Shown here in pieces: positions 3,027 to 53,530 of a stretch of 64,000 bases of DNA. The translations under genes and the position numbers were made by a program. The DNA is taken from assembly GCF_026151205.1 (NCBI RefSeq), contig NC_087077.1, forward strand, positions 992,001 through 1,056,000, written 5' to 3'. Every line of letters starts with the position of its first letter. Position 1 is the stretch's first letter. The notes under the pieces were generated by a model. That model had not been told where the DNA came from and did no database searches. It worked only from the letters and a program-made list of their open reading frames with translations. The stretch is from Bolinopsis microptera (lineage: Eukaryota; Ctenophora; Tentaculata; Lobata; Bolinopsidae).

Positions 3027-4052
3027 GTATGTTATATTTTACATAGAGGTATGTTATATTTGTTATTTAGAGGTATGTTATATTTTACATAGAGGTATGT
3101 TATATTTGTTATTTAGAGGTATGTTATATTTGTTATTTAGAGGTATGTTATATTTTACATAGAGGTATGTTATATTTTACATAGAGGTATGTTATATTTG
3201 TTATTTAGAGGTATGTTATATTTGTTATTTAGAGGTATGTTATATTTTACATAGAGGTATGTTATATTTTACATAGAGGTATGTTATATTTTACATAGAG
3301 GTATGTTATATTTGTTATTTAGAGGTATGTTATATTTGTTATTTAGAGGTATGTTATATTTGTTATTTAGAGGTATGTTATATTTGTTATTTAGAGGTAT
3401 GTTATATTTGTTATTTAGAGGTATGTTATATTTGTTATTTAGAGGTATGTTGTATTTTACATAGAGGTATGTTATATTTTACATAGAGGTATGTTATATT
3501 TTACATAGAGGTATGTTATATTTGTTATTTAGAGGTATGTTATATTTTACATAGATGATAGAGGTATGTTATATTTTACATAGAGGTATGTTATATTTGT
3601 TATTTAGAGGTATGTTATATTTGTTATTTAGAGGTATGTTATATTTGTTATTTAGAGGTATGTTATATTTTACATAGAGGTATGTTATATTTGTTATTTA
3701 GAGGTATGTTATATTTGTTATTTAGAGGTATGTTATATTTGTTATTTAGAGGTATGTTGTATTTGTTATTTAGAGGTATGTTATATTTTACATAGAGGTA
3801 TGTTGTATTTTACATAGATGTATGTTATATTTGTTATTTAGAGGTATGTTATATTTGTTATTTAGAGGTATGTTATATTTGTTATTTAGAGGTATGTTAT
3901 ATTTGTTATTTAGAGGTATGTTATATTTGTTATTTAGAGGTATGTTATATTTGTTATTTAGAGGTATGTTATATTTTACATAGAGGTATGTTATATTCGT
4001 TATTTAGAGGTACGTTATATTTGTTATTTAGAGGTATGTTATATTTGTTATT
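3021..4052. repeat. 22/24-bp minisatellite multiplying a splice donor
   Basis: Around 45 units share the core AGAGGTATGTTATATTT and end in either TACAT (22 bp) or GTTATTT (24 bp). The two versions are intermixed without a strict order, with occasional variants (GTATGTTGT, a GATGATAGAGG insertion near 3555, GTACGTT near 4011). The first unit coincides with the end of the candidate exon at 2979-3026, so each unit carries the donor-like string AG|GTATGTT. Confidence 0.95.
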
Positions 4053-9679: not shown

Positions 9680-10622
9680 CTGTACTTTATACACCAGACA
9701 CTGTAACACCAGACACTGTAACACCAGACACTGTTACACCAGACACTGTAACACCAGACACTGTTACGTACACCGGACACTGTAACACCAGACACTGTTA
9801 CAACAGACACTGTTACGTACACCAGACACTGTTACGTACACCAGACACTATTACGTACACCAGACACTATTACGTACACCAGACACTGTAACACCAGACA
9901 CTGTAACACCAGACACTGTAACACCAGACACTGTAACACCAGACACTGTTACGTACACCAGACACTATTACGTACACCAGACACTATTACGTACACCAGA
10001 CACTGTAACACCAGACACTGTAACACCAGACACTGTAACACCAGACACTGTAACACCAGACACTGTAACAACAGACACTGTTACAACAGACACTGTTACG
10101 TACACCAGACACTATTACGTACACCAGACACTGTAACACCAGACACTGTAACAACAGACACTGTTACAACAGACACTGTTACGTACACCAGACACTATTA
10201 CGTACACCAGACACTATTACGTACACCAGACACTGTAACACCAGACACTGTAACACCAGACACTGTAACACCAGACACTGTAACACCAGACACTGTAACA
10301 CCAGACACTGTTACGTACACCAGCCACTGTTACGTACACCAGACACTGTAACACCAGACACTGTAACACCAGACACTGTTACGTACACCAGACACTGTAA
10401 CACCAGACACTGTAACACCAGACACTGTTACGTACACCAGACACTGTAACACCAGACACTGTAACACCAGACACTGTTACACCAGACACTGTAACACCAG
10501 ACACTGTTACGTACACCAGACACTGTAACACCAGACACTGTAACACCAGACACTGTTACGTACACCAGACACTGTAACACCAGACACTGTAACACCAGAC
10601 ACTGTAACGTTCACCAGACACA
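9680..10622. repeat. 15/19-bp minisatellite (ACACCAGACACTGTA family)
   Basis: Units alternate between ACACCAGACACTGTA (15 bp) and a 19-bp form with a CGT insert (CGTACACCAGACACTGTTA). Variants include ACAACAGACAC and GACACTATTA. Blocks of the two forms recur as larger modules (for example two 19-bp ACTATTA units followed by 15-bp runs), indicating multi-unit duplications. Confidence 0.95.
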
Positions 10623-12495: not shown

Positions 12496-15400
12496 GTAAG
12501 TTCTTGGATTATTGGAATTTGTAATTTAAATTTCTGTTATTTGTAATTTAAATGTTTATTTAGTTTCATAAATTGGAAGATAAGTTCCATGACAATATGA
12601 GATAAGCTCATTCTAGCAAGCACAATATGTTGCCGCGTATGGGGCAGGGAGGGTAAGCCTCAAAATTGTTATTAAAATCCTGTAACCAGCATCGTGAATT
12701 GAACAAGGCCACGGATCGCCAGTACTTTCAGATAATTCGTCTCAGATTCATAACATTGTCATTGTGAATGAGGGCTTTAATTTGCGATCATGTTACTCCT
12801 GGCACTTGACAGTGATAGAGCACGGTGACTTTACAGTCTCACCGCCCTTCCCTCCAGGGACGTAGCCAGGATTTTTCTTTGAGGGGGGCTGTCGGCGAGC
12901 GAAGCGAGCCGACGCATCCAATCAAGCTGCGCAGCGAGCGAAGCGAGCAAGCTGTGGCAGGGGTCTGGGGGCGCAGCCCCCAGCGGGGTCCAGGGGCGGA
13001 GCCCCTTGGCGGAGCCCCTTGGCGGGGGCTAGGGGGGCGCAGCCCCCCGGAATTTTTTGCGAAACAGGGTGTTTTAGACGACATTTGGCATTAAAGAAAT
13101 TTGTAGGACAGCAATAAACTGGGATTGAAAAGAATCAAGTACTCACGTAAATTTGGTAACTTCACAACAGCAATCTGCATTCTCCAATCAGAATTTACGA
13201 CTTACTCAGGCCTCATCGTCTTAAGATTTTTACATTTCCTACGGTCTAGGGGACACTATTGACTATAATTATAGAAGTCTTCTAGAATGTTTGCTTGGAT
13301 TTAATGACATATATTTACTAATCCACAGTTCAAATCTTTGACTGACTGCAGTCATAAACACAGCCCAGTTACCAGGCGACCATGGGGACTAGGGGGCTTA
13401 TCTTTTTTCTGGGGTTCGATTTTTTCCGGGGGGGGCTGCCGCCCCCCTAGCCCCCCCCCCTGGCTACGTGCCTGCTTCCCTCTCCTTCTCTGTGACGTCA
13501 CATTATCCCGTCATGTGGTTCTCTGTGACGTCACATTATCTCATCATATGGTTCTCTGTGACGTCACATTATCCCGTCATATGGTTCTCTGTGACGTCAC
13601 ATTATTTCGTCATATGGTTCTCTGTGACGTCACATTATCCCGTCATGTGGTTCTCTGTGACGTCACATTATCTCATCATATGGTTCTCTGTGACGTCACA
13701 TTATCTCATCATGTGGTTCTCTGTGACGTCACATTATCCCGTCATATGGTTCTCTGTGACGTCACATTATTTCGTCATATGGTTCTCTGTGACGTCACAT
13801 TATCCCGTCATGTGGTTCTCTGTGACGTCACATTATTTCGTCATATGGTTCTCTGTGACGTCACATTATCTCATCATATGGTTCTCTGTGACGTCACATT
13901 ATCTCATCATATGGTTCTCTGTGACGTCACATTATCTCGTCATGTGGTTCTCTGTGACGTCACATTATTGCATCATGTGGTTCTCTGTGACGTCACATTA
14001 TTTCGTCATGTGGTTTGGTCATGTGATGATATCGTGGTTGTGAATATTAACATCAGCCATGCTATGTTGGGCTATGCAGCTTCAGAACATTACAGTGATC
14101 TTAATCACTAGAGTTGTTCGGACCACTGAAATTGTTTGGACCAATTGAGCATATAATTTCAACTTTAATCTGAAACTGGATTTGTTCGTGGATTTAGGAG
14201 ACACTTTGGGTATGATATACTGAAGGCGGGTTTGGAACAGTCCTTAAAGTTAGAGCGAAGATTTAAAGTACTGCAGTTATTGTATATAATGAACTCTAAT
14301 TTTAACAATTCAGCTCCCAATTAAACTAAGTGACTCTAATTTTAACAAAGTGGCTCCCAATTAAGCGATATAGCACTAATTTTAACAATTTTAACTCTCA
14401 TTATGATGAACTCTAATTCAAATAATTTCAGGGTGAACCACTCTTAGAATTTGGAGTACTAAAACTAGAGGTTAGTTTCTGTGTTAGTTTCAGTGATGAA
14501 TCTGCTTTGTTTAGTTTTATTTGAAATTCGTTCTTATTTGTTCTATAATGGTCTTAGATGATAACATTAAATAGTTCTACGGAGAAGAAACTTTCTAGAA
14601 AATTATGCGGAACCGATACGAAATTTTATAGACTTGTATCGTTGTAATATATACTTGTGGCCCCACTAATGATTGTAGAGTCTTTGTTTACTCAATACTC
14701 AATACTCATGATTAGCGCTTTAATCGGTCGCTTTCTAGTGTCTTAACCCAAATCGATCATCGATGATATTGTGAAACTTTTAAAACTCAAACTCAACCCC
14801 CATCGGTTAGTGTCGTGTAAGCGGACACTTCGTGTAGACTGCTCGTTATGCCATATATAGTAAGATTGGGATGACATAATTGAACAACCTTTAATTCAGC
14901 CAGCGGGGCATTGTATTTTGAAAAGCTTGTTTACAATGGCGATGGTGTAAGTATCAATAGGACGTGGTTAGCCTTCTTCTAGTCGGAATTAGTGTGGATA
15001 ATAATGCAGGATACTCTGTGTAGTGAATGATAAAGGAATTACTGTTTTAATTAAGGTGCAGGCCGGAGGAATGTTCAATGTTGTTTGCGCTTGAATATGC
15101 GGGACTATTCAACATCTTTTAAGCAACCGCTGACATGTACGTTGCGCGCCGATGAGAAATTACATTAAATTGGCCCAAGTATGCAACAGTGTACGAATTG
15201 TTGCGCGCGCAGCAGCCATGTGCGCTGCCGTCCGTCCATGGTTAAGTTATTGATTGCTTATGTTTTTTAAAACGGTCCTGTTTACAGCAAGGGTTCAAAG
15301 TTAACGGAACTGATGGAAGATACCTATTTCTGTTCGAGAAGTTACTACTTTTTACCAAACAGAAAGACGGAAAATACCAATACAAAGCCCATCTTTTGGT

Positions 15401-32500: not shown

Positions 32501-32868
32501 AAATGTACTTCAGTCTCATTGCGTATCATATGTGGTTCCAAACGGTTCTCGTTTGTTAGATTTGCATTTGCATTGTTGAGAACACGGACCGGACGATTTG
32601 CCTTATCTGCCTTATTTAATCTAATGTAGAATGACTATTCATAAAACTGAAACTTAGGTCATTGTTTTGCGTGCCTTGATTTTGAATATTCATACTTCAT
32701 AGCCACCACAATCCACATGCAGTGTCCCTCACTCGACAGTGAGTTAGTTTGTTGTTTCGCTGTGGAGCGTTATACTGCATCACTGGTAGTCATATCCACT
32801 AGCAATCAATATCTGTAGCTGTCACCGGGAGTCTGCATCACAAGCATCACAAGCAGTCAACATCACCC
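29583..32868. other. No gene seen
   Basis: AT-rich. Short ORFs only, including a 105-codon minus-strand ORF at 30708-31025 with no recognisable domain. The sequence at 31040-31140 contains several CACGTG/TCACGTG E-box-like motifs and might be promoter-like, but no gene start could be linked. Confidence 0.4.
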
Positions 32869-35258
32869 TCATTCAGCATCACCAGCAGTCAACATCCCCA
32901 GCAGTCAACATCCCCAGCAGTCAACATCCCCAGCAGCCAACATCCCCAGCAGTCAACACTCAACATCACCCTCATTCAGCATCCCCAGCAGTCAACATCC
33001 CCAGCAGTCAGCACCCCCAGCAGTCAACATCACCCTCATTAAACATCCCCAGCAGTCAACATCACCCTCATTCAGCATCCCCAGCAGTCAACATCCCCAG
33101 CAGTCAACATCCCCAGCAGTCAACACTCAACATCACCCTCATTCAGCATCCCCAGCAGTCAACATCCCCAGCAGTCAGCACCCCCAGCAGTCAACATCAC
33201 CCTCATTAAACATCCCCAGCAGTCAACATCACCCTCATTCAGCATCCCCAGCAGTCAACATCCCCAGCAGTCAACATCCCCAGCAGTCAACACTCAACAT
33301 CACCCTCATTCAGCATCCCCAGCAGTCAACATCCCCAGCAGTCAACATCACCCTCATTCAACATCACCAGCAGTCAACATCAACATTATTCAGCATTCCC
33401 AGCAGTCAACATCACCCTCATTAAACATCCCCAGCAGTCAACATCACCCTCATTAAACATCCCCAGCAGTCAACATCACCCTCATTCAGCATCCCCAGCA
33501 GTCAACATCACCATTATTCAGCATTCCCAGCAGTCAACATCCCCAGCAGTCAACATCCCCAGCAGTCAACATCACCCTCATTAAACATCCCCAGCAGTCA
33601 ACATCACCTTCAATAAACATCACCAGCAGTCAACATCACCCTCATTAAACATCCCCAGCAGTCAACATCACCCTCATTAAACATCCCCAGCAGTCAACAT
33701 CACCCTCATTCAGCATTCCCAGCAGTCAACATCCCCAGCAGTCAACATCCCCAGCAGTCAACATCACCCTCATTAAACATCCCCAGCAGTCAACATCACC
33801 CTCATTAAACATCACCAGCAGTCAACATCACCCTCATTAAACATCCCCAGCAGTCAACATCACCCTCATTAAACATCCCCAGCAGTCAACATCACCCTCA
33901 TTCAGCATCTTCAGCAGTCAACATCACCATTATTCAGCATTCCCAGCAGTCAACATCACCACTACCAGCAGTCAACATCCCCAGCAGTCAGCATCCCCAG
34001 CAGTCAGCACCCCCACTACCAGCAGTCAACATCCCTAGCAGTCAACATCCCCAGCAGTCAACATTCCCAGCAGTCAACATCCCCAGCAGTCAACATCCCC
34101 AGCAATCAACATCACCCTCATTCAGCATCCCCAGCAGTCAACATCACCCTCATTCAGCATCCCCAGCAGCCAACATCACCCTCATTCAACATCACCAGCA
34201 GTCAACATCACCCTCATTCAGCATCCCCAGCAGTCAACATCACCCTCATTCAGCATCCCCAGCAGTCAACATCACCCTCATTCAACATCCCCAGCAGTCA
34301 ACATCACCCTCATTCAGCATCACAAACAGTCAACATCACCCTCATTCAGCATCCCCAGCAGTCAACATCACCCTCATTCAGCATCCCCAGCAGACAACAT
34401 CACCCTCATTCAGCATCCCCAGCAGTCAACATCAGCATTATCCAACATCCCCATCAGTCAGCATCACCCTCATTCAGCATCACCAGCAGTCAACATCACC
34501 CTCATTCAGCATCACCAGCAGTCAACATCACCCTCATTCAGCATCCCCAGCAGTCAACATCACCCTCATTCAACATCACCAGCAGTCAACATCAACATTA
34601 TTCAGCATCCCCAGCAGTCAGCACCCCCAGCAGTCAACATCACCCTCATTCAACATCACCAGCAGTCAACATCAGCATTATCCAACATCCCCAGCAGTCA
34701 ACATCAGCATTATCCAACATCCCCATCAGTCAGCATCACCCTCATTCAGCATCACCAGCAGTCAACATCACCCTCATTCAGCATCACCAGCAGTCAACAT
34801 CACCCTCATTCAGCATCCCCAGCAGTCAACATCACCCTCATTCAACATCACCAGCAGTCAACATCAACATTATTCAGCATCCCCAGCAGTCAACATCCCC
34901 AGCAGTCAACATCACCCTCATTCAACATCACCAGCAGTCAACATCAGCATTATCCAACATCCCCATCAGTCAGCATCACCCTCATTCAGCATCACCAGCA
35001 GTCAACATCACCCTCATTCAGCATCACCAGCAGTCAACATCACCCTCATTCAGCATCCCCAGCAGTCAACATCACCCTCATTCAACATCACCAGCAGTCA
35101 ACATCAACATTATTCAGCATCCCCAGCAGTCAGCACCCCCAGCAGTCAACATCCCCAGCAGTCAACATCACCACTACCAGCAGTCAACATTCCCAGCAGT
35201 CAACATCCCCAGCAGTCAACATCCCCAGCAATCAACATCACCCTCATTCAGCATCCAT
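32869..35258. repeat. 2.4-kb compound minisatellite (CCAGCAGTCAACATC family)
   Basis: Two modules are mixed: a 15-bp CCCAGCAGTCAACAT unit in runs, and a longer unit adding CACCCTCATTCAGCAT or CACCCTCATTAAACAT. Higher-order blocks recur, for example a roughly 200-bp block containing CATTATCCAACATCCCCATC appears three times between 34430 and 34980. No splice site in a known gene is adjacent. Confidence 0.95.
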
Positions 35259-35519: not shown

Positions 35520-37389
35520 GTAATTCCTTTTTTATAGCCTCAATTCTCAACCCCATCACCATGGTAACACCTCATCTAGTCACGTGCTTGATTTTAAGGG
35601 GATTATTCCCCACCGTAAATCTTGATAATCGTATTGTGATCCCCTTCTCAACCGCTGACCAGCCCAGATAACTAATTGCACTTCCCACCATTCACCAAAC
35701 ATTCCCCTCTCTCTGACAGCGCGTGTTTATTAATACTATTTTCTTCATTAAGTAGCGGTGGAATGTGGCTCTGTTGTTCCTTCTGACGATTAAATCAAAT
35801 GTTCATGGCATTTATAAAGACACTTTCATGACACCATGGTTCCTTACTTTTTGCGTTTTACTGTAAAAACTCTCAGTATACGCATCATATTAGACTATGT
35901 TAAACACAAAGCATTCCTTTATTTTACGTGTTTTACAGCCTTGATTACAGACTTCAGGGAATTAAGACGTCAATACCTGTCTAACTGCTCCCGAGCATTA
36001 TTTCCTCTCACAAAATACCTGCCACCCACACTTGTACAATGTGCTTGTGTTATGTGTTGTGTTTGCTATAATACAGCTGCTCTGACGCACCCGCCACACT
36101 TTCTTTTTGCGCATGAAAAGTGCGACTAGGTACAGTGTCTAGCTGCACTGCAGCAGGCTAGTAGTAATACTAGTAGTTCCATTAGTCTAATGCTAGTAAT
36201 CATGCTTGCAGTGCTCTGTGCTAGCTAGTAATCAAGTAATCAGGCGGTTCCTGGTGCCTAGCTCACACAACCTCTCTGTTATGCAGCTCAGTTAGGAAGT
36301 CTGAATATTTTCTGACCAAAACTCAAATCCATTGCCAGTAATTAATTTGTTGTAACCGGTACTAGGGTAAACACTTTGGGTAACCTACACAATACACAGT
36401 ACACAGTTCACAATGTTTAGTGTTATGGAGGTGTTATCATGAGTTATCGTTATGTTATACTCCCAGCAAAACCTTATGAAATTAAACATTTTTATCGTAA
36501 TCACGTATGCGGATGAACTAGAATAGAATCCCACAAACCCCTGCTGAAATTCGATATATTTACAAATTGGTAGCTCCTCCCTCATTCCCACGTAAAATGT
36601 TCCTCGTTATTAAGTTTTAGGTATCATAACATTATGAGGCTATTATGGGCCGGTGCCTAGTCCTTACACCTAATTCTTACCCGCTTTTCTTCTCGTTTTC
36701 TACTTCCTGTAAGTAGCTTAATGCTTTGTAATAAAACCTCGATTAGTATTTTCGTGAGGCTGCGAACAATTTTCTAAAGCTTCTTCAGTTTGAATACGAC
36801 CGGTGTTTTGCGGGTTTGCAGTTTGCGTATTTTCGTGTTGATCAAAGATGACTTGCAATACATTGGTGTACTTCTGTTTAGACCTATTTTGGTACCAGCA
36901 GGGTTTCCTATAGTTCGTGAATGTCTATAGCTATAACAAAGATAACCCACAAATATCGTCTCATATAAATGTGATAATCACTAGATCCATCCTTTCGCCT
37001 GATAACTTGATAATTTAAACTATGCTGCAGGCCTGCCGCGCTTTGTGCAGCATCTCAGCAAATTAGGAATATTTGCTTTAATTAGCCGCGATATGATAAA
37101 TGTTCACTTTTTACTGAGAATCGTGATAATTCGATAAAATCATTAGTGAAACAGTAGACCGTAAAATATTCCAACAGCAGTTGTAAAAGATCATGATGCA
37201 CAGAAGCAAGTCCACTTCGGAGTCACCACGCCCTCTTTCTCTCAATTCAGGTAGAAGATCTGCACTATAACATGCTTTGTCATTTCTTTTTTTCTGGAAT
37301 AAGCCCCCTGATATTTTCTTGTCCCTGGATATTAACCTATTACAACACCCAGTAGAACGTATATTCATGCAACAAGGTGAATTAACAGT
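35520..37389. other. No gene seen
   Basis: AT-rich. ORFs at 35836-36129 (+) and 37111-37368 (-) lack recognisable features. Confidence 0.4.
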
Positions 37390-39369
37390 TACAGTTTGAT
37401 CCCCAGATTACACCCCAACATTAAAACCCCAGATAACACCCCTAATATCACCCCAAATCACCCCAAATCACCAGATAACACCCCTAATATCACCCCAAAC
37501 CCCCAGATAACCCCCCTAACATCAGCCCAAATCCCCAGATAACACCCCCCCCCCCAATATCACCCCAAATCCCCAGATAACACCCCTAATATCACCCCAA
37601 ATCCCCAGATAACACCCCCAACATCAGCCCAAACCCCTAGATAACACCCCTAATATCACCCCAGATCCCCAGATAACACCCCCAATATCACCCCAGATCA
37701 CCAGATAACACCCCCAATATCACCCCAAACCCCAGATAACACCCCCAATATCACCCCAAACCCCCAGATAACACCCCCAATATCACCCCAGATCCCCAGA
37801 TAACACCCCCAATATCACCCCAGATCCCCAGATAACACCCCTAATATCACCCCAGATTCCCAAATAACACCCTCAATATCACCCCAGATCACCAGATAAC
37901 ACCCCCAATATCACCCCAAACCCCAGATAACACCCCCAATATCACCCCAAACCCCCAGATAACACCCCTAATATCTCCCCAAATCCCCAGATAACACCCC
38001 CAATATCACCCCAAATCCCCAGATTACACCCCCAACATTATCACCCCAGATGCCCAGATAACACCCCTAATATCACCCCAAATCCCCAGATAACACCCCC
38101 AATATCACCCCAGATCCCCAGATAACACCCCCAATATCACCCAAAATCCCCAGATAACACCCCCAATATCACCCCAAATCCCCAGATAACCCCCTAACAT
38201 CAGCCCAAATCCCCAGATAACACCCCCCCAATATCACCCCAAATCCCCAGATAACACCCCTGATATCACCCAAACCCCCAGATAACCCCCCTAACATCAG
38301 CCCAAATCCCCAGATAACACTCCCCCCCCCCGCCCCCAATATCACCCCAAATCACCAGATAACACCCCCAATATCACCCCAAATCCCCAGATGACACCCC
38401 TAATATCACCCCAAATCACCAGATAACCCCCCCCCCAATATCACCCCAAACCCCCAGATAACCCCCCTAACATCAGCCCAAATCCCCAGATAACACCCCC
38501 CCCCAATATCACCCCAAATCCCCAGATAACACCCCTAATATCACCCCAAATCCCCAGATAACACCCTCAATATCACCCCAAACCCCAGATAACACCCCAA
38601 TATCACCCCAAACCCCCAGATAACACCCCCAATATCATCCCAAATCCCCAGATAACTTCCTCAATATCACCCCAAACCCCAGATAACACCCCAATATCAC
38701 CCCAAACCCCAGATAACACCCCAATATCACCCCAAACCCCCAGATAACACCCCCAATATCACCCCAAACCCCCAGATAACACCCCAATATCACCCCAAAC
38801 CCCCAGATAACACCCCCAATATCTCCCCAGATAACACCCCTAATATCACCCCAGATCCTGACGACTCTGTGTTTGCTGCTGTGATCCCCAGATAACACCC
38901 CTAATATCTCCCCAGATCCTGACGACTCTGTGTTTGCTGCTGTGATCCCCAGATAACACCCCCAATATCTCCCCAGATCCTGACGACTCTGTGTTTGCTG
39001 CTGTGATCCCCAGATAACACCCCTAATATCACCCCAGATCCTGACGACTCTGTGTTTGCTGCTGTGATCCCCAGATAACACCCCCAATATCTCCCCAGAT
39101 AACACCCCTAATATCACCTCAGATCCTGACGACTCTGTGTTTGCTGCTGTGATCCCCAGATAACACCCCCAATATCACCCCAGATCCTGACGACTCTGTG
39201 TTTGCTGCTGTGATCCCCAGATAACACCCCCAATATCACCTCAGATCCTGACGACTCTGTGTTTGCTGCTGTGATCCCCAGATAACACCCCCAATATCAC
39301 CCCAGATCCTGACGACTCTGTGTTTGCTGCTGTGATCCCCAGATAACACCCCTAACATTATCACCCCAG
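37390..39369. repeat. ~31-bp C-rich minisatellite running into a splice acceptor
   Basis: Units follow CCCCAGATAACACCCCCAAT then ATCACCCCAAAT, with C-run length variation and a minor CTAACATCAGCCC variant. From about 38850 the array also contains eight copies of ATCCTGACGACTCTGTGTTT plus GCTGCTGTGA, identical to the first 30 nt of the calmodulin-like exon that begins at 39370. The array therefore ends exactly at that acceptor (CACCCCAG|AT). Confidence 0.95.
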
Positions 39370-42300
39370 ATCCTGACGACTCTGTGTTTGCTGCTGTGAC
39401 AGATGTTCAAATTGAGGAGTACCGTGAAGTGTTCAGGATATTTGACGCGGATCAGGACGGCAACATCTCCAGTACGGAGCTCATCAAGATTCTTAAGTAG
39501 GTGCTGATTGATCGCTTTGTCGTTAGCTCCAATTTGCCGGTATTATCTCAAAAGGTCCTAATTTGTTGGTATACGATCAAAACTACGATTGTAAGCTATA
39601 ACGAGCTTAGTAACGAGCTTAGTAATTCTCTGGCTTGCTTATCTCGGTGAACGCCTTTTACCGATAAGACATGGACAAAGCATATTTTTGGTGTTGACAG
39701 ACCCTCTGTAATAATAATATTCCATGTGTGTATTGGAGCTTCGGAATTGGAGCTTCGGAATTCCTTTTAAATTCCCCTCACCGTCTCTCCATCCTCCAGT
39801 AACTATAGTAACTATAGTAACTATAGTAACTATAGTAACTATAGTAACTATAGTAACTATAGTAACTATAGTAACTCTCACCGTCTCTCCATCCTCCAGA
39901 TCCTGTGGATTGGAACCTACTGATGAGCAGGTTCAGATACTAATTGAAAATGTAGATACAAATGGTAACGGAGTGGTAAGTTGTTTTTGGCTTGTTTTAC
40001 TGGTATCTTTAATGTACGTTTTAATTAAAAAGTTGTTGTCATGTGCCATTATAAAGTTAGGTGCGTAGAATCAGTGTTATGTTAACAAGTGATCTCGCCA
40101 CCTGCAGAGGTGACATATGTTATAGTTATCGGTGAATAGGTAATTGATTCTATCAACACTCAAACTTGTCTTCTCGTGATTTAAAGTACATCCTAAGCTA
40201 GTCCATTACAATTATGCTAGCTGTTATACAGTGGGACACAGGCTTTATACAGTGGGACACAAGCTTTATACAGTGGGACACAGGCTTTATACAGTGGGAC
40301 ACAGGCTTTATACAGTGGGACACAGGCTTCATACAGTGGGACACAGGCTTCATACAGTGGGACACAGGCTTTATACAGTGGGACACAGGCTTTATACAGT
40401 GGGACACAGGCTTTATACAGTGGGACACAGGCTTTATAAAGTGGGACACAGGCTTTATACAGTGGGACACAGGCTTTATACAGTGGGACACAGGCTTTAT
40501 ACAGTGGGACACAGGCTTTATACAGTGGGACACAAGCTTTATACAGTGGGACACAGGCTTCATACAGTGGGACACAGGCTTCATACAGTGGGACACAGGC
40601 TTTATACAGTGGGACACAGGCTTTATACAGTGGGACACAGGCTTTATACAGTGGGACACAGGCTTTATACAGTGGGACACAGGCTTTATACAGTGGGACA
40701 CAGGCTTTATACAGTGGGACACAGGCTTTATACAGTGGGACACAGGCTTTATACAGTGGGACACAGGCTTTATACAGTGGGACACAGGCTTTATACAGTG
40801 GGACACAGGCTTTATACAGTGGGACACAAGCTTTATACAGTGGGACACAGGCTTTATACAGTGGGACACAGGTTTCATACAGTGGGACACAGGCTTTATA
40901 CAGTGGGACACAGGCTTTATACAGTGGGACACAGGCTTTATACAGTGGGACACAGGCTTTATACAGTGGGACACAGGCTTTATACAGTGGGACACAGGCT
41001 TTATACAGTGGGACACAGGCTTTATACAGTGGGACACAGGCTTTTTATGTTGGAATCGTCAAGAAACTATTTAATCCTCTTTTCAAGATTAGCAATCGCG
41101 TTCCATCAACTCTAAAATGCTGCATTAACTACAGGGTGGGCCAAAAGTCAGTACCCATACGTTGGCCTTAATAGCTCCGCCGTGTTTTATATTTGAGAGC
41201 TGTTGCTTTGCAGATGGCATACTGTATTTACTAGTTCGAGGATTCTGTCGTCAAAATTTGAAAATTCGAATATTTTAGACCACGCCCATTCAATATTAAA
41301 ACACCTATATTGTTTTCTCTGAACATGCTGGACGCCTAATTTTTTCAGAGACGGTAGATTATCAAATGTTGCATATGATCTGAAAACATGAGGTAAAACG
41401 GATTAGAAATGACGAAGTTATCAAGCATTTTCTGTATCTCGTTAACAAAATTGACTGGGTGATTATGTGACACCGTGACACGACACCTTAATTGGGCACC
41501 CTTAACAATTCCCATAACGTTTAACGGGGTAGTTAACGGGGTCACCTTATCACGTGATTAGGTAAACCAATCACCTGATCACACGTAATGAATAAACTCG
41601 TTATGCTTCATATCTCGGTCATCCGAGAAGCTACAGTTATAATTCTTTCAGGACAAACGTAATTCGAATGGCCAAACACAATTCAATAACATTTAGCTTG
41701 ATCCGACTATCCAAACTATCAAATAAATGTGAAAATGAACCTCCATTTGAAAAAAATGAACACGAATATTTTTCGAGTTGACAAATTCCTCGAACCAGTG
41801 GTGGTACTAAGTCATACCAGAAAGAAGTATTTAAATTGGGCACTCAGTGACTGAGCTATAAAGGCCAACGTATGGGTACTGACTTTTGGCCCACCCTGTA
41901 TATTGAATAGCTGTTTTTTCTCTCCAGATAGCAATTAGTTCTATATTGAATAGCTGTTTTTCACTCCAGATAGAGTTTACAGAGTTCTGTCAGTTAATGA
42001 TAAAGTACTTCTCTCCAGATAGAGTTTACAGAGTTCTGCCAGTTAATGATAAAGTACTCTCTCCAGATAGAGTTTACAGAGTTCTGCCAGTTAATGATAA
42101 AGTACTTCCCTCCAGATAGAGTTTACAGAGTTCTGTCAGTTAATGATAAAGTACTTCTCTCCAGATAGAGTTTACAGAGTTCTGCCAGTTAATGATAAAG
42201 TACTTCTCTCCAGATAGAGTTTACAGAGTTCTGCCAGTTAATGATAAAGTACTTCTCTCCAGATAGAGTTTACAGAGTTCTGCCAGTTAATGATAAAGTA

Positions 42301-45300
42301 CTTCTCTCCAGATAGAGTTTACAGAGTTCTGCCAGTTAATGATAAAGTACTCTCTCCAGATAGAGTTTACAGAGTTCTGCCAGTTAATGATAAAGTACTT
42401 CTCTCCAGATAGAGTTTACAGAGTTCTGCCAGTTAATGATAAAGTACTTCTCTCCAGATAGAGTTTACAGAGTTCTGCCAGTTAATGATAAAGTACTTCT
42501 CTCCAGATAGAGTTTACAGAGTTCTGCCAGTTAATGATAAAGTACTCTCTCCAGATAGAGTTTACAGAGTTCTGCCAGTTAATGATAAAGTACTTCTCTC
42601 CAGATAGAGTTTACAGAGTTCTGTCAGTTAATGATAAAGTACTTCTCTCCAGATAGAGTTTACAGAGTTCTGCCAGTTAATGATAAAGTACTCTCTCCAG
42701 ATAGAGTTTACAGAGTTCTGCCAGTTAATGATAAAGTACTTCTCTCCAGATAGAGTTTACAGAGTTCTGCCAGTTAATGATAAAGTACTTCTCTCCAGAT
42801 AGAGTTTACAGAGTTCTGCCAGTTAATGATAAAGTACTCTCTCCAGATAGAGTTTACAGAGTTCTGCCAGTTAATGATAAAGTACTTCTCTCCAGATAGA
42901 GTTTACAGAGTTCTGCCAGTTAATGATAAAGTACTTCACTCCAGATAGAGTTTACAGAGTTCTGCCAGTTAATGATAAAGTACTCTCCAGATAGAGTTTA
43001 CAGAGTTCTGTCAGTTAATGATAAAGTACTTCTCTCCAGATAGAGTTTACAGAGTTCTGCCAGTTAATGATAAAGTACTTCTCTCCAGATAGAGTTTACA
43101 GAGTTCTGCCAGTTAATGATAAAGTACTCTCCAGATAGAGTTTACAGAGTTCTGCCAGTTAATGATAAAGTACTTCACTCCAGATAGAGTTTACAGAGTT
43201 CTGCCAGTTAATGATAAAGTACTTCTCTCCAGATAGAGTTTACAGAGTTCTGCCAGTTAATGATAAAGTACTTCTCTCCAGATAGAGTTTACAGAGTTCT
43301 GCCAGTTAATGATAAAGTACTTCTCTCCAGATAGAGTTTACAGAGTTCTGCCAGTTAATGATAAAGTACTTCTCTCCAGATAGAGTTTACAGAGTTCTGC
43401 CAGTTAATGATAAAGTACTTCTCTCCAGATAGAGTTTACAGAGTTCTGCCAGTTAATGATAAAGTACTTCTCTCCAGATAGAGTTTACAGAGTTCTGCCA
43501 GTTAATGATAAAGTACTTCTCTCCAGATAGAGTTTACAGAGTTCTGCCAGTTAATGATAAAGTACTTCTCTCCAGATAGAGTTTACAGAGTTCTGTCAGT
43601 TAATGATAAAGTACTCTCCAGATAGAGTTTACAGAGTTCTGCCAGTTAATGATAAAGTACTCTCCAGATAGAGTTTACAGAGTTCTGTCAGTTAATGATA
43701 AAGTACTTCTCTCCAGATAGAGTTTACAGAGTTCTGCCAGTTAATGATAAAGTACTTCTCTCCAGATAGAGTTTACAGAGTTCTGCCAGTTAATGATAAA
43801 GTACTCTCCAGATAGAGTTTACAGAGTTCTGCCAGTTAATGATAAAGTACTCTCCAGATAGAGTTTACAGAGTTCTGCCAGTTAATGATAAAGTACTTCT
43901 CTCCAGATAGAGTTTACAGAGTTCTGCCAGTTAATGATAAAGTACTTCTCTCCAGATAGAGTTTACAGAGTTCTGTCAGTTAATGATAAAGTACTCTCCA
44001 GATAGAGTTTACAGAGTTCTGCCAGTTAATGATAAAGTACTTCTCTCCAGATAGAGTTTACAGAGTTCTGCCAGTTAATGATAAAGTACTTCTCTCCAGA
44101 TAGAGTTTACAGAGTTCTGCCAGTTAATGATAAAGTACTTCTCTCCAGATAGAGTTTACAGAGTTCTGCCAGTTAATGATAAAGTACTTCTCTCCAGATA
44201 GAGTTTACAGAGTTCTGCCAGTTAATGATAAAGTACTTCTCTCCAGATAGAGTTTACAGAGTTCTGCCAGTTAATGATAAAGTACTTCTCTCCAGATAGA
44301 GTTTACAGAGTTCTGCCAGTTAATGATAAAGTACTTCTCTCCAGATAGAGTTTACAGAGTTCTGCCAGTTAATGATAAAGTACTTCTCTCCAGATAGAGT
44401 TTACAGAGTTCTGCCAGTTAATGATAAAGTACTTCTCTCCAGATAGAGTTTACAGAGTTCTGCCAGTTAATGATAAAGTACTCTCCAGATAGAGTTTACA
44501 GAGTTCTGCCAGTTAATGATAAAGTACTTCTCTCCAGATAGAGTTTACAGAGTTCTGCCAGTTAATGATAAAGTACTTCTCTCCAGATAGAGTTTACAGA
44601 GTTCTGCCAGTTAATGATAAAGTACTTCTCTCCAGATAGAGTTTACAGAGTTCTGCCAGTTAATGATAAAGTACTTCTCTCCAGATAGAGTTTACAGAGT
44701 TCTGCCAGTTAATGATAAAGTACTTCTCTCCAGATAGAGTTTACAGAGTTCTGCCAGTTAATGATAAAGTACTTCTCTCCAGATAGAGTTTACAGAGTTC
44801 TGCCAGTTAATGATAAAGTACTTCTCTCCAGATAGAGTTTACAGAGTTCTGCCAGTTAATGATAAAGTACTTCTCTCCAGATAGAGTTTACAGAGTTCTG
44901 CCAGTTAATGATAAAGTACTTCTCTCCAGATAGAGTTTACAGAGTTCTGCCAGTTAATGATAAAGTACTTCTCTCCAGATAGAGTTTACAGAGTTCTGCC
45001 AGTTAATGATAAAGTACTTCTCTCCAGATAGAGTTTACAGAGTTCTGCCAGTTAATGATAAAGTACTTCTCTCCAGATAGAGTTTACAGAGTTCTGCCAG
45101 TTAATGATAAAGTACTTCTCTCCAGATAGAGTTTACAGAGTTCTGCCAGTTAATGATAAAGTACTTCTCTCCAGATAGAGTTTACAGAGTTCTGCCAGTT
45201 AATGATAAAGTACTTCTCTCCAGATAGAGTTTACAGAGTTCTGTCAGTTAATGATAAAGTACTTCTCTCCAGATAGAGTTTACAGAGTTCTGCCAGTTAA

Positions 45301-48300
45301 TGATAAAGTACTTCTCTCCAGATAGAGTTTACAGAGTTCTGCCAGTTAATGATAAAGTACTTCTCTCCAGATAGAGTTTACAGAGTTCTGCCAGTTAATG
45401 ATAAAGTACTTCTCTCCAGATAGAGTTTACAGAGTTCTGCCAGTTAATGATAAAGTACTTCTCTCCAGATAGAGTTTACAGAGTTCTGCCAGTTAATGAT
45501 AAAGTACTTCTCTCCAGATAGAGTTTACAGAGTTCTGCCAGTTAATGATAAAGTACTTCTCTCCAGATAGAGTTTACAGAGTTCTGCCAGTTAATGATAA
45601 AGTACTTCTCTCCAGATAGAGTTACAGAGTTCTGCCAGTTAATGATAAAGTACTTCTCTCCAGATAGAGTTTACAGAGTTCTGCTCAGTTAATGATAAAG
45701 TACTCTCCAGATAGAGTTTACAGAGTTCTGCCTTCATGATATCTCAATAGAGTTACAGATTTGTTATATAAGTACTCCTCCAGTTAGAGTTTTAAGAGTT
45801 TTGCCCGGTTTTTATAAATATTCTCTCCGATAGAGTTTTAAAAGTTCTATTAAAAATAAAGTATTCTTCGTAGAGTTTAAGATTCTTTCAGTTAAAAGAA
45901 AAGTCTTCACTCCCCGATAGGTTTACAAAGTTCTGTATTTTTTGAAAAAAGTTTTCTCTCCAGGGGAAAATTTAAGTTTTTTGCCCGTTAATTTAAAGTC
46001 TTCCAGATAGGTTTACAGGTTCTGCCAAATTAATGTAAAGTATTCTCTCCCGATAGAGTTTACGGTTTGCCCGTAATAAAAAAAGTACTTTTATCCAATA
46101 GAGTTTTTCAAGTTTCTGCCTTTTTTAATGATTTTAAAGTACTTTTCCCCAGATAAGTTTTTAAAAGAGTTTTTTTTGCCAGGTTTAATATAAAATACCT
46201 CCGATAGGTTTAAAAAGGGTTTTGCCGTTAAGATAAAGTACTTCACTCCAATAAGGGGTTTACAGAGTTCTGCCAGTTTAAAGAAAAGTACTTCACTCCA
46301 GATAGAGTTTACAGAGTTCTGCCAGTTAATGATAAAGTACTCTCCAGATAGAGTTTACAGAGTTCTGCCAGTTAATATTTTAAAATCTTACTCCCGATAA
46401 GTTTACAGAGTTTGCCCGTAATGAAAAGTACTTCATCCAGAAGAGTTTACAAGTTCTGGCATTTTTTGAAAAAAAGTACTTCTCCAGATAGGTTTACAGG
46501 TTTGAGTTAAAGATAAAATACTTCTCTTCCCCGATAGAGTTTTTTTTTTTCAAGTTCGCCCGTTAAGATAAAGTACTTCACCCGATAGAGTTTCAGAGTT
46601 CTGCCAGTTAATGTAAAGTATTCTTCCCAAAGAGTTTACAGAGTTCGCAGTTTAAAGATAAAAATATTTTCCAGATAGAGTTTACAGATTTGTCATTTTT
46701 AATGATTAAAAAATATTCACCCAGATAGAGTTTACAGAGTTTTGTCGTTAAATTTTTTTAAAGTATTCTTTTCCGATAGAGTTTACAGGTTTGCCCTTAA
46801 TATAAAATATTTCTCCCGTAGGTTTACGAGTTCTGCCATTAATGATAAAATACTCCGTAGAGTTTTTCAGATTCTGCCAGTTAATGATAAAATAAATTCT
46901 TTCCCAAAAAGTTTTTCGAGTTCTGTCAGTTAAGATAAAATCTTTTTCCCAATAGAGTTTTCAGAGTTCTTCAGTTAATGATAAAAATCTCCCAGATAGA
47001 GTTTTTTAAAAAGCCCCCCGAAATTTTAATATAAATACTTTCCAAAAGAGTTTTTGGTTCTGCCGTTAATGATAAAGTACTTCTCTCCCGAAAGTTTTCG
47101 AGTTCTGCCAGTTTTTAATAAAAAAAGTATTCTCTCCAATAGAGTTTACAGGTTCTGCCCGTTTTTAAAGAAAAAGATTTCTCCAGATAGGTTTCAGAGT
47201 TTTTGTAGTTAATGATAAAAAATCTTTTCTCCGTAGATTTACAGAGTTTTTGCCAGTTAATGATAAAAATACTTTTCCCCGATAGAGGTTTAAGAGTTTG
47301 CCAGAATGATAAAGTACTTCATCCCAAAAGAGTTTCGAGTTTTTTCCATTTTAAAGTAAAGTCTTTTCTCCAAAGATAGAGTTTACAAATTCTGAAATTT
47401 TAAAGATAAAGTACTCTCTCCGATGAGTTTACAGAGTTCTGCCCGTTAAAGATAAAGTATTCACTCGATAGAGTTTAAAAGGGGTTTTGCCAGTTAATGA
47501 TTTTAAAATTATTTCTCTCCAGTAGGTTTTTCAGAGTTCTGCCCGTTTAAAGATAAATATTCTCTCCCAAAAGAGTTTAAGATTTTCCCTTAATGTAAAG
47601 TACTTCTCTCAATAGAGTTTTTTTCAGAGTTCTGCAGTTAAAGATAAAAGTACTCTCCCGATAGAGTTTTAAGAGTTCGCAGTTAAAGTTTTAAAATACT
47701 TTTCCCCCCATAGGTTTTTCAGATTCTGTAGTTAATAAAAATTTTCTCCAGATAGAGTTTTTCCCCGATTTTTTGCCCGTAATGATAAAGTTTCTTCCCC
47801 TTTGGTTTTTCGAGTTCTGGCATTAAAAAAAAGTACTCTCCAAAGTTTACAAGTTTTCCAGTTAATGATTAAAATATTTCTCCAGTGAGTTTTCAGAGTT
47901 TGCCCGTTAATGATAAAGTACTTCATCCAGTTTTGAGTTTACAGATTCGCCAGAAGAAAAAAAAATCTCTCCAATAGGGTTTTTTTTAGAGTTTTCTTTT
48001 ATTTTGAAAAAGTACTTCCCAATAGAGTTTTTTCGAGTTTTTGCCGTTAATATAAAGTAAATCTCCAGATGAGTTTTAAAGAGTTTGCCAGTTTAATATT
48101 CTCCCGATAGAGTTTACAAGTTCTGCCAAAATTAAGATAAATATTTTTTTCCGATAGAGTTTAAGGTTCTGCCCGTTTAAGATAAAAGTACTTCTTCAAA
48201 AGAGTTGAGTTTTTTGGGTTTTTGATTAAAAAAAAGTATTCAAGATAGGGAAAAATTTTCAGGTCTGAGTTAAAAGAAAAAGTATCTAGATAAGTTTTTT

Positions 48301-51300
48301 AGAGTTCTGAGTTAATGAAAAAAAAAGTACTTTTCCCGATGAGTTTACGAGTTTGCCCGTTAAGATTTTAAAATACTCTTGTAGATTTACAGGTCTGTCA
48401 TTTTAAAGATAAAAATATTTTCTAAAGATTAAGAGTTTTGCAAAGGTTAAAGATAAAGTACTTCTTCCCAAGAGTTTAAGAGGTTTTTAAAATTATGAAA
48501 AAAAGTCTACTCCAATAGGGTTTCGGTTCTGCCAGTTTAAAATAAAGTATTAGTAGAGTTTTAAAAGTTCTGCCCGAATGATATTTTGATAGAGTTTTCA
48601 AGGGTTTTGATTAATGAAAAGTCCTTTCTCAATAGAGTTTACGAGTTCGCCGAATGATAAAGTACCCCCTTAATTTGATTTACAAGTTCGAAATGTAAAA
48701 AATTTTCCAAATAGGGTTTAAGGCGTGCATTTAAGATAAAGTAAAATTTCCCCCAATAGATTTTCAGAGTTTTGGCCAGTTTTAATGATAAAGTATTTTC
48801 TAGATAAGTTTACAAAAATTTTGTCAGTTTTTAAAAAATATCCAATAGAGTTACAGATTTTTTTTCAGTTAAATATAAAAGATTTCTAATTTGATTCAGG
48901 TTTTGGAAATTTTAAAAATAAAAAAATTTCTTCTTCCAGTAAAAATTTTTCAGGGGTTTCTTTTAAAATTTTAAAAAACCCCCAGATAGAGTTTAAGATT
49001 GGGTTAATGAAAAGTATTCTCTCCAGATAGAGGACATTTCGCCAGAAAGAAAAAAAGTACCCCTTCTCTCCAGATAGATTTAAAAGGTTTTTTTAATGAA
49101 AAAAAATTTTTTTAGATTTTAATTTTAAAGCGGTCAGAAAAAATAAAATTTTCTTTTCCTGTAGGTTTTTTTTTTCCCAGATTCGCCAGTTTTGAATTAA
49201 TAAAAATACTTTCCGATAGAGTTTTTGATTTGCCCGTTAATGATAAAACTTCCTCGATAGAGTTTCAGAGTTCGCCGTTAAATTAATCTTCCAATAGAGT
49301 TTACGATTCGAGTTTAAAGATAAAATACTTCTCCCGATAGAGTTTACAGATTTGCCGTTAAAAATAATCTCTCCAATGAGTTTTTAAGGTTTCCAGTTTT
49401 GAAAAGATTTCCCTCCGATAGAGTTTTCGATTTGCCAGTTAATGATAAATTCTCTCCCGATAAGTTTTACAGGTTCTGCCAGTTAATGAAAAGTACTTCT
49501 CAGATAGAGTTTTAAAAGTTTTTGCCTTTATGTAAAACTTACCCCGATAGAGTTTTAAAATTTTTTTCCTTAATGATAATACTTCCAGAAGATTTTTCGG
49601 TTTGCCCGTTAATGATAAAAATAAAATTTTTCTCCAGAAATTTAGAGTTTTTAAGGAGTTTTTTTGATTTTAATTTTTAAAAAAAGTATTCACTCCCGAA
49701 GAAAGGTTTAAGAGTTTCTGGCAGGTTTTAAAAAGATAAAGTTTTTCTCCAGAAGATTTACAGAGTCTGCCATTATTTTTAAAGTCTTCTCCAGATAGAG
49801 TTTACAGAGTTCGCTTAATGATAAAGTACTTTTCCCCCGAAGATTTACGGTTCTGAGTTAAAGATAAAGTATCTAGATAGGTTTTTCAGATTTGCATTAA
49901 TGATAAAATATTCTCTCCAATAGGTTTTCAGAGTTCTGCCAGTTAATGATAAAGTACTTCTTTTAATGATTTTTAGAGTTCTGCCGTTAAAGATAAAATA
50001 TTTCTCCAAAAGAATTTTAAAATTTTTCTGCCAGTTTAAAGATAAAGTACTTTCTCCAGATGAGTTTTTCAGAGTTCTGCAGTTAATGATAAAAATATCT
50101 CCAGATAGATTTTCAGAGTTCTGCGTTAATGATAAAGTCCTCTCCAATAAAAAAGAGTTTAGATTTTTTGATTATAAAGTACTTTTTTCTCCGATAGATT
50201 TACAGGTTTGCAGTTAAGTAAAGTATTCTCTCCCGATAGAGTTTACGATTTTTTCCGTTAAAGAAAAGTCTTCTTCCCGTAGAGACGGGGTTCCTTTTTT
50301 TTATAAAAGTATTCTTCAGTAAGTTTAAGATTTGCCCATTAATGATAAAATATTTCTCAAAATTTTGAGTTTTCAGAGTTCTGCATTAATGATAAATATT
50401 CTCCCGATGAGTTTACGATTTCGCAGTAAAGATTAAAATTTTCTTCCAAAGAGTTTACAGAGTTCTGCAGTTAAAGAAAAGACTTCCTCCCGATAGATTT
50501 ACAGGTTTTTGCCAAATTAAAGAAAAGTAAATTTTCCCGAAAAGGGGTTTAAAGTTCCCAAATAAAAGACCTCGAAATTTTTGATTTTCAGAGTTTGCCA
50601 GTTAATGATAAAGTATTTTAGATAAGGTTTTAAGAGTTCGCCAGTTAATGTAAAATACTCTTCCCAATAAGTTTCAGAGTTTGATTTAAAGATTTAAGTT
50701 CTTCTTCCTGTAGAGTTTCAGAGTTTGCCCGTTAAGATAAATATTTTCCCAAAAAGAGTTTACAGAGTTTTGCCGTTAAAAATAAAATACTTCTCCCAAA
50801 AGAGTTTACAGAGTTTTTTTGCCAGTTTAAAGAAAAGTACTTCTCCCAATAGAGTTTTCAGGTTCTGCCAGTTAAGATAAAGTATTCTAGTTAGATAAGG
50901 GTTTAAAAAGGGTTTCCATTAATGATAAAGTACTTCCCTCCAGATAGGTTTTTCAGAGTTTGCCAGTTAATAAAAGTTTTTCTCCAATTGGTTTCAAGGT
51001 TTTGCCCTTAATGAAAAAAAGACTTCTCCCAGAAGAGTTTACAGATTGATAATTAAATTTCCTCAGATAGAGTTTACAGATTTGCCCGTTTTTGATAAAG
51101 TACTTCTTCCAGATAATTTACGAGTTTGCATTAAAGTTAAAAATATTCTCAAGAAAGAGTTTTCAGATTTTTCCCTAAGAAAAAATACTCTCTCCCATTT
51201 TAGTTTCAGGTTTGCCGTTTAAATTTTATAAAAACTTTTCCCGATAGATTACAGGTTTCCATTAATGATAAAGTATTCTCTAGATAGAGTTTTTCAGGTT

Positions 51301-53530
51301 CGAGTTAAAGATAAATATTTTTCCAAAAGAGTTACAGAGTTTTTTTGAAATTTAATGAAAAAAAAATTCTAATTAAAATTTGGTTTACAGAGTTTGAGTT
51401 AATGAAAAATATTCTTCCGTAGATTTCGGGGGTTTGAAATAATTTTTAAAGACTTCTTCAGATAGAGTTTACAGAGTTCTGCCATTAAAATTAAAAATAC
51501 TTTCTCCCAAAAGATTTTAAAAGGGTTTTGCCCTTTTTGTAATACTTTTCCTTCCAAAAATTTTTTCGGGTTTCTGCCGTTAATGAAAAATACTTTTCCA
51601 AAAAGTTTTTCAGGTTCTGCCAGTTAAGATAAAGTATTTTCCAGTAGAGTTTTTCAGGTTTTTCCTTAAGATAAAATTTTTCCGATAGTTTTCAGGTTTT
51701 GCCAGTTTTAAAGATAAAGTCCCTCCAATAGATTTAAGGTTTGCCAGAAAAAATAAGTATTCCCCTTTTTAATAGAGTTTAAGATTCTGGCCATTAAGAT
51801 TTAAAAAAAATCTAGATAGGTTTCGATTCGATTAATATTTTAAATATTCCTCCCGATAGGTTTTCAGGTTTTTTAAAAGAAAAAGTACTTTTCCCAAAAG
51901 GTTTTACAGAGTTCGCCCGTTTGAAAAATTTCTTGATAATATTTTAAAGGGGTTCTCAATAATAAAAAAAGTACTTTTTTCAATAATTTTCAGATTTGCC
52001 CGTTAATGTAAATATTTCTCCCGAGAGTTTACAGAGTTCTCCTTTAAAGATAAAGAATTCTTCCCCGATAGAGTTAAGGTTTTGATTAATGATAAGTACT
52101 TTTAATAGGTTTTTTGAGTTTGCCAGTTAATTATAAATACTCTCCAATAGAGTTACAGGGGTTTGCATTTAAAATAAAATTTTCTCAGAAGGGTTCGATT
52201 TCAATTTAAGATTTTAATTCCCGATAGAGTTTACGAGTTTTGCCCGTTTTAAAGAAAAAGACCCCTTTCCCGATAGAGTTTTTAAGGTTCTGCCCGTTAA
52301 AGATAAAGACTTTTAATAAGTTTTAAAAGTTTGCCGTTAATGAAAATCTCTCAATAGAGTTTACGAGTTCTGTTCAATTATATATAATTTTCGATGAGTT
52401 TCAGAGTTTGAGTTAAGAAAATACTTTTTCCAGATAGGTTTTCAGGGGTTTTTTGCCTTTAAAGAATAATACTTCTCTCAGATAGAGTTTTCAGATTCTG
52501 CAGTTTTAAGATAAATACTTTTCCGATAATTTTTCAGAGTTTGGGGTTTTTTGTAAATTTTTTTCCTTAGAGTTCGAGTTTGCCAAAATTTTTAAAGTTT
52601 TAAAGTATTTTGAAAGTTTTACAGAGTTTTTTGGGAGTTAAGATAAATATTTTTCAGATAGAGTTAAAAAGGTTTTTTGCCCCGTTAAATTTTAAAAATT
52701 TCTCCGATAAGTTTAGAGTTCTGATTAAAGTAAATATTCTTAGAAGAGTTTAAAATTTTGCCATTAAAGAAAAGTTTTCTAAAAAGTTTAAAAAGTTTGC
52801 CCTTTTAATGAAAAAGTATTCAGTAGATTTTCAAATTTGAGTTAAGAAAGTACTCTAGGAAAAAAGTTACAGAGGTTTGAGTTTTAAAAATAAAAATAAC
52901 TTCTTCCAAAAAGTTTTCGAGTTCCAGTTAATGATAAAGTACGGTACCCAAAAAGAAGACGACCTCAAGGATGCGTTCAAGGTGTTTGACCAGGACAACA
53001 ACGGTTATATTGATGCGGTGGAACTCCAGACCATTCTTTCTAACATGGGGGAGAACTTACCAATGGATCAGGTGATTAGAGATTTGTAGCTGAACCTTTG
53101 TAAACCCGTTCATTGACTAGTATCCTTTAAAATGCCACGTCCTGTATAATTATCTAGTTATATATGCATATTATGGAACCAGCAGGTTTCAACGATCACA
53201 ATGACCCCATCACTGAACAAATAAACAAGAACAGAAAATGAATAATCCAGATAATTATCAGTATGTTTTTACAATGACCCCATCACTGAACAAATAAACA
53301 AGAACAGGAAATTAATAATCCAGATAATTATCAGTATGTTTTTACAATGACCCCATCACTGAACAAATAAACAAGAACAGAAAATGAATAATCCAGATAA
53401 TAATCAGTATGTTTGGCAGGTAGAGGACATGATCCGTGAAGCTGATCTGAACGGTGATGGTCTGATAGACTACGAAGAGTTCATCAAGATGATGACCTGT
53501 AACCCTATCAGTGAGACCGGTGTTTTGTGA
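39370..53530 (+). CDS. Calmodulin-like protein with four EF-hands
   Basis: Exons: 39370-39496, 39900-39975, array-linked exon 3 ending at 53071 (unique part 52943-53071), and 53420-53530 with stop TGA. Phases match at every join (2/1, 0/0, 0/0). About 159 residues are visible plus an unseen N-terminus. The four 12-residue calcium loops are complete: [36 protein letters not shown] and [12 protein letters not shown], so all sites look functional. The family binds calcium and relays it to target proteins; [11 protein letters not shown] precedes EF1 where calmodulin has its short N-terminus, and the end is [13 protein letters not shown] rather than MMTAK, so it is a calmodulin relative, not calmodulin. 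Intron 3 ends in an 11-kb array made of copies of exon 3's first 39 nt. Confidence 0.85.
39777..39899. repeat. 9-bp microsatellite between two copies of a splice acceptor
   Basis: The 23-bp segment ending CGTCTCTCCATCCTCCAG occurs at 39777-39799 and again at 39877-39899. Between them are 8.5 copies of TAACTATAG. The second copy is the acceptor of calmodulin-like exon 2; the first has an equally good polypyrimidine tract and AG. Confidence 0.95.
40222..41042. repeat. 21-bp minisatellite, about 39 copies
   Basis: Units are TTTATACAGTGGGACACAGG plus C, with a few CTTCATACAG, AAGCTTT and TTATAAAG variants. It lies in intron 2 of the calmodulin-like gene. Three frames are open for 279-294 codons because the unit length is a multiple of three and lacks stops; none is a gene. 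Confidence 0.97.
41130..41900. mobile_element. Mariner-like non-autonomous element (767 bp, TA duplication)
   Basis: The left end CAGGGTGGGCCAAAAGTCAG (41132 on) is matched by its reverse complement ending at 41898. The inverted repeats are identical for about 37 bp and extend to about 46 bp with one mismatch. TA flanks both sides (41130-41131, 41899-41900). Ends and duplication fit the Tc1/mariner superfamily. Two short minus-strand ORFs inside (41345-41545, 41637-41843) do not look like transposase. It is inserted in intron 2 of the calmodulin-like gene. Confidence 0.85.
41901..41973. repeat. 43-bp step duplication ahead of the exon-3 array
   Basis: TATTGAATAGCTGTTTTT followed by a CTCCAGATAG acceptor occurs at 41901-41930 and again at 41944-41973. 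The second copy leads into the first array unit, so the acceptor was duplicated here too. Confidence 0.8.
41960..52942. repeat. 11-kb array of splice acceptor + exon-3 head, ~220 units
   Basis: Each unit is a pyrimidine-AG acceptor (TTCTCTCCAG, or shortened TCTCTCCAG and TCTCCAG) followed by the 39 nt that encode [13 protein letters not shown]. Unit length is 46-49 bp. A minor variant has TGTCAG for TGCCAG. From 41960 to about 45735 the roughly 78 units are almost identical; from there to 52942 they are full of indels. The final unit runs directly into the unique remainder of calmodulin-like exon 3 at 52943. Confidence 0.97.
45735..52942. repeat. Indel-ridden continuation of the exon-3 array
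   Basis: The same 49-bp unit remains recognisable but nearly every copy has one or more small deletions and stretched T, A or C runs. The transition from near-perfect to heavily damaged is abrupt, within two units around 45735, with a few clean units re-appearing near 46280-46370. This looks like unpolished long-read consensus. Confidence 0.8.
53198..53416. repeat. 73-bp triplication abutting the exon-4 acceptor
   Basis: Three tandem copies start at 53198, 53271 and 53344, each beginning ACAATGACCCCATCACTG and ending ATCAGTATGTTT. The third copy runs into GGCAG, the acceptor of calmodulin-like exon 4 at 53420. Copies differ at only a few positions. Confidence 0.95.

Follow-up and report, generated by a model that had tools for sequence, protein, structure and literature searches.

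The calmodulin-like gene in this stretch of the ctenophore Bolinopsis microptera genome carries tandem arrays that run across exon-intron boundaries, and at two of its four splice acceptors the repeated unit contains both the acceptor and part of the exon. We consider that these arrays are probably "mirages", the name given to similar repeats in lancelets, and that they probably came from random short tandem duplications in the short introns of a repeat-rich genome, being kept where the outermost, native splice site still works. The window, that is the whole 64-kb stretch analyzed, comes from a 264.65-Mb assembly, from which we also drew an intron sample for comparison. The gene product matches the EF-hand profile PF00036 in four stretches, and its best PDB matches are calmodulins (1.4e-42). 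The gene and its repeats are arranged as follows.

37193..37250, + strand: probable exon 0 (19 codons plus 1 nt), placed only by an open frame whose phase fits exon A and by a donor motif
37451..38829, + strand: C-rich array with a 32-bp unit, in the intron 5' of exon A (TRF)
38824..39399, + strand: array across acceptor A, unit of about 61 bp (31 intron and 30 exon nt)
39370..39496, + strand: exon A
39777..39899, + strand: pair of 23-nt intron-end copies (at 39777 and 39877) in the A-B intron, with a microsatellite between them
39798-39876, + strand: 9-bp microsatellite in the A-B intron
39900..39975, + strand: exon B
40224..41044, + strand: 21-bp array in the B-C intron, about 250 bp from the donor (TRF)
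41130..41900, + strand: element with terminal inverted repeats in the B-C intron
41959..45735, + strand: clean part of the 49-bp array across acceptor C, 77.7 copies (10 intron and 39 exon nt per unit)
45736..52944, + strand: noisy part of the 49-bp array, about 161 copies, with error-like differences
about 52904-53071, + strand: exon C, whose body past its repeated first 39 nt is 52943..53071
53198..53414, + strand: 73-bp triplication, with acceptor D outside its unit
53420..53530, + strand: exon D, including the stop codon

According to the initial annotation, each acceptor of the gene was copied or touched by a tandem duplication. The arrays are real, but only A and C are spanned together with exon sequence; B has an intronic copy alone, and D is adjoined. 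Acceptor A (39369) and 30 nt of its exon occur nine times including the native copy, in agreement with the eight extra copies first counted. The AG ends run from 38854 to 39369, mostly 61 bp apart, and the array is continuous out of the C-rich array upstream. At acceptor C, where about 220 repeats with 39 exon nt had been estimated, we counted approximately 239 copies of the 49-bp unit, a total to which the noisy part contributes about two thirds. The reported duplication of acceptor B (39899) 100 bp upstream holds for the final 23 intronic nt, which recur at 39777 across the 9-bp microsatellite, but no exon nucleotide is copied. The triplication beside acceptor D (53419) stops 5 nt upstream of the junction and not 3, and its unit does not include the acceptor. 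TRF places no array start within 100 bp of any of the donors at 37250, 39496, 39975 and 53071. The contrast of four of four acceptors with none of four donors corresponds to 1/70, a post hoc figure that depends on a loose meaning of "touches"; the spanned acceptors are two. Other large arrays lie upstream of the gene (1-2240, 3022-4053, 9691-10621, 13486-14015 and 32845-35242, with units of 20, 24, 15, 33 and 32 bp), and between the 21-bp and 49-bp arrays there is a 771-bp element with 48-bp terminal inverted repeats, 98% complementary, which we take to be mariner-like.

When an upstream copy was taken as the acceptor, with one to three extra units at A or one to four at C, every number tried led to an early stop, located at A in the opening unit and at C inside the first three units. 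Since the stops fall that early, larger numbers of extra units should also terminate translation prematurely.

The giant array at acceptor C is of uneven quality. Its clean part has 0.3% substitutions, and the noisy part (7.2 kb) has 11.1% substitutions, 12.0% deletions and 3.1% insertions, or about 26% off the unit; quality steps down near 45.7 kb, with a short clean island near 46.3 kb. In the noisy part, adjacent copies have differences in common at a rate of 0.151, against 0.156 (sd 0.010) for distant copies (lags 20-99). Because neighbouring copies share differences no more than distant ones, we read this segment as gap fill or an unpolished read and not as ancient divergence. Substitutions equal to a neighbouring unit base (704/878) and insertions beside an identical base (220/249, a count without a control) abound there, but deletions affect homopolymer positions less often (0.073) than other positions (0.147), which argues against simple homopolymer error. 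The copy joined to exon C lies in the noisy part, and no acceptor is legible in it. The noisy segment and its unshared differences raise the question of whether arrays were misplaced or invented by the assembly, the more so as the published B. microptera assembly, if it is the same one, was built with wtdbg2, TGS-Gapcloser and pilon, according to the part of its description available. We regard such an artefact as very improbable: the 78 clean copies continue directly from intron sequence, of the candidates scored in a search with the 49-bp unit, this place was the only match, and seven other stretches of the genome have junction-spanning arrays with other units.

Those stretches belong to the intron sample, which was built from six families (myosins, CCT chaperonins, kinesins, adaptins, tyrosine phosphatases and Sec1 proteins) with exons located by homology. 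We used 286 of 331 family matches, in 69 stretches totalling 267,866 bases; the 45 excluded matches, set aside before the repeat scan, were one-exon genes, near-duplicate copies, isolated exons and one compact myosin. Profile coordinates were continuous in 162 of the 217 adjacent pairs, and 156 of these 162 could be resolved into GT-AG introns that preserve the frame (median length 228 bp). Tandem repeats make up 12.8% of the sampled bases; in the available text on the Hormiphora genome, 13% was called tandem repeats. Arrays spanned 8 of the 312 junctions, in several gene families: 2 of the 156 acceptors and 6 of the 156 donors. Further arrays were identified at exon edges seen from one side, as listed below (unit in bp x copies).

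Acceptor-spanning, solved introns: 21 bp x 24; 49 bp x 29
Donor-spanning, solved introns: 38 x 2; 35 x 25; 53 x 2; 33 x 52; 53 x 8; 36 x 25
Acceptor, one-sided exon edge, L001: 49 x 6.7, exon match of 21 nt
Acceptor, one-sided exon edge, probable, L013:491-727: 41 x 5.8
Donor, one-sided exon edge, L040: 40 x 22
Donor, one-sided exon edge, L043: 36 x 4.5
Donor, one-sided exon edge, L009: 21 bp, degenerate
Acceptor, abutting array, L018 2305-5215 (gene orientation): 26 x 112, 3 exon nt only

The 26-bp unit of L018 ends in an acceptor-like TTGTAG, and the array runs 3 nt into a kinesin exon. A further candidate on the acceptor side, L046, was dropped, as the likely acceptor lies beyond the array.

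The initial annotation had proposed that duplications may start at the acceptor, an idea to be judged by the enrichment of array ends at 3' splice sites. We counted an array as touching a junction when it came within 10 nt of it or spanned it, using three null models and two array definitions (46 or 21 arrays). There was no acceptor excess in the 156-intron sample: 5 of 46 arrays touched or spanned an acceptor, against 3.4-6.6 expected, and 3 of 21 did so under the stricter definition (p 0.26-0.81 throughout); the loosest arrays gave 5/59 (p 0.45). Donors were touched more often, by 10 of the 46 arrays (3.4-6.6 expected, p 0.002-0.11), by 7 of the 21 stricter ones (p 0.002-0.047) and by 13 of the 59 loosest (4.4 expected, p < 0.001, printed as 0.000). 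Measured by the annotation's own yardstick, an enrichment of array ends at acceptors, its proposal is not supported in this sample. Arrays spanning a junction on either side numbered 7-8 over six settings, against 2.2-4.9 expected in present introns (p 0.001-0.10); the strict arrays gave 8 against 2.5 (p = 0.001) and the loose ones p 0.08-0.10. If every intron had been 200 bp, 4.3-9.0 would be expected. These outcomes vary with the thresholds and with the assumed former shortness of introns, and the cases are clustered (L008 appears twice, and L012 and L013 are neighbouring parts of a single region); for these reasons the donor excess is suggestive.

Nor do the duplications seem to start at splice sites, because the junction falls at any depth in the unit and not at its edge. 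The exon share of the unit ranged from 0.12 to 0.86 over 14 arrays, a set that includes the two of the calmodulin-like gene and excludes L009 and the 41-bp array of L013, and was compatible with a uniform spread (KS p = 0.48, with little power). A hot spot, in which R-loops, polymerase pausing or RNA-templated repair trigger duplications at splice junctions and at donors more than at acceptors, is in our opinion unlikely. It would account for the donor touches in present introns (10/46 against 3.4 and 7/21 against 1.9, both p 0.002), for those of the loosest arrays, and for L006, where at that setting three donors have an array starting at most 11 nt away. It fits poorly with the absence of an acceptor excess and with the spread of junction positions across units; the donor excess also weakens if ancestral introns were short (p 0.11 and 0.047), the loosest-setting excess comes partly from short-period arrays starting just inside the intron, and the concentration of cases in few genes makes the p values optimistic.

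Under the reading that we prefer, short tandem duplications would arise at positions unrelated to the splice signal, some of them including a junction, and these would then expand and homogenise as other minisatellites do. Those arrays would survive in which a normal mRNA still comes from the outermost copy beside the exon body, namely the first one of a donor array or the last one of an acceptor array. We infer the mechanism of duplication, the survival filter and the use of the outer copy alike. That duplications persist only when the exon edge keeps an intact site had been the second alternative of the initial annotation, and it fits the data, short of proof. The four-acceptor picture, presented there as hardly due to chance, is clustered and post hoc and not an acceptor rule, the calmodulin-like gene being one of several array-rich genes. 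Some observations go against random placement, namely too many spanning arrays at strict settings, the excess of donor touches, and the four acceptors to no donors of the gene itself. A mutational bias to donors is possible, since donor touches exceed expectation.

We also considered whether the arrays created the introns, through tandem duplication of an AGGT-bearing exon piece, the array itself becoming the intron. The units of L001, L013, L018 (acceptor array), L040 and L044 have AG and GT meeting at the junction, and intron gain from mirages was proposed by the authors of the lancelet globin paper in the text available (PMC3087553). In all eight solved cases, however, the array covers one intron end only and the other end lies outside it, and we give this origin very little credence.

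Decoy signals persist in the arrays without visible removal. GT or AG was intact at 797 of 798 base positions in the 14 arrays, native copies included; this single edit compares with 96 in 8820 exon positions and 138 in 4997 other intron positions (a tally that took the exon part of L001 as 35 nt, where the exon-share test used 21). We do not claim selective upkeep of the decoys, as a per-array null of random dinucleotides gave p = 0.07 when edits were counted and p = 0.14 when edit-free arrays were. Frame-neutral periods were likewise discarded as a rule: only 4 of the 14 periods are multiples of 3, and 10 are not. It is conceivable, though in our view less likely than not, that splicing skips dozens to about 240 identical decoys lying nearer the partner site across the intron and takes the outermost one. 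This would be tolerated only through exon definition, and donors would be commoner in arrays, acceptors also needing branch-point and pyrimidine spacing. Skipping at both ends would follow if the site nearest across the exon were preferred. If true, the outermost site would be chosen just as exon definition leads one to expect at both donor and acceptor arrays, in contrast to pairing with the nearest site across the intron, and the arrays would be a genome-wide natural experiment on splice-site choice. The arrays in effect set between 2 and about 240 identical splice sites in competition, a natural test of choice among equals, and may also be length-variable loci within coding genes.

The initial annotation knew of no described mechanism for the pattern; the pattern itself is already reported, in lancelet mirages (PMC3087553, PMC3902484). 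In the available portions of these papers, the repeats of Adh3, the globins BflGb6 and BflGb9, and troponin C, with similar ones in PGBD5, are likewise minisatellite-like and span exon-intron boundaries, both 5' and 3', with AG/GT in many copies; our sample likewise has six donors and two acceptors. The units here are of minisatellite size, 61 and 49 bp in the gene and 21-53 bp elsewhere, and this 21-61 bp range is within the 10-72 bp given there for the Adh3 mirages. The unit joins an exon part to the adjoining intron end at acceptors A and C and not at B and D; both boundary types occur in the genome sample and acceptors only in this gene; and AG/GT is retained in the copies, with the one edit in 798 positions. 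The differences are of host and scale: the animal is a ctenophore, arrays span 8 of 312 sampled junctions in several gene families, and one junction alone has about 239 copies, where the two BflGb6 haplotypes have 3 and 6 units. The kind of repeat is already known, and what is new is the phylum, how many genes are affected and how high the copy number is. Should the rate of 8/312 hold, minisatellites across exon-intron boundaries would be frequent in a genome distant from that of lancelets, for which the same texts give a handful of genes. The accessible text of the globin paper (PMC3087553) calls the lancelet mechanism unclear.

Among the matches listed from the open-licence literature, we found no ctenophore report of boundary-spanning repeats. 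Human polyubiquitin UBC, with tandem dual-specific splice sites, similarly has a splice signal in each repeat; its repeats are coding and spliced in variable number, judging from the available part of PMC10809524, whereas decoys at A or C here give early stops. Ordinary intronic minisatellites have the same array structure and presumably the same turnover, but their unit has neither exon sequence nor a splice site. Earthworm metallothionein repeats were set aside as a precedent, the part of the source available describing intronic repeats and no boundary-spanning ones.

The search of the genome gave some additional observations. A spliced-leader pattern from another ctenophore, Hormiphora, had no match in the genome with up to 3 mismatches, an uninformative outcome. 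Kinases were rejected as a source of introns and none was used, since many of their 136 matches span the whole profile in one exon, which suggests many intronless kinase genes. In L029 (2813-3286), two consecutive matches, to myosin positions 105-167 and 102-167, stand 51 bp apart, an apparent exon duplication. Finally, parts of two glutamate receptors had the ML032222a iGluR chains, which we take to be from the ctenophore Mnemiopsis, as their best solved-structure match; for the longer L070 frame, kainate receptor 2 ranked first, the ML032222a chains being 256-residue fragments.
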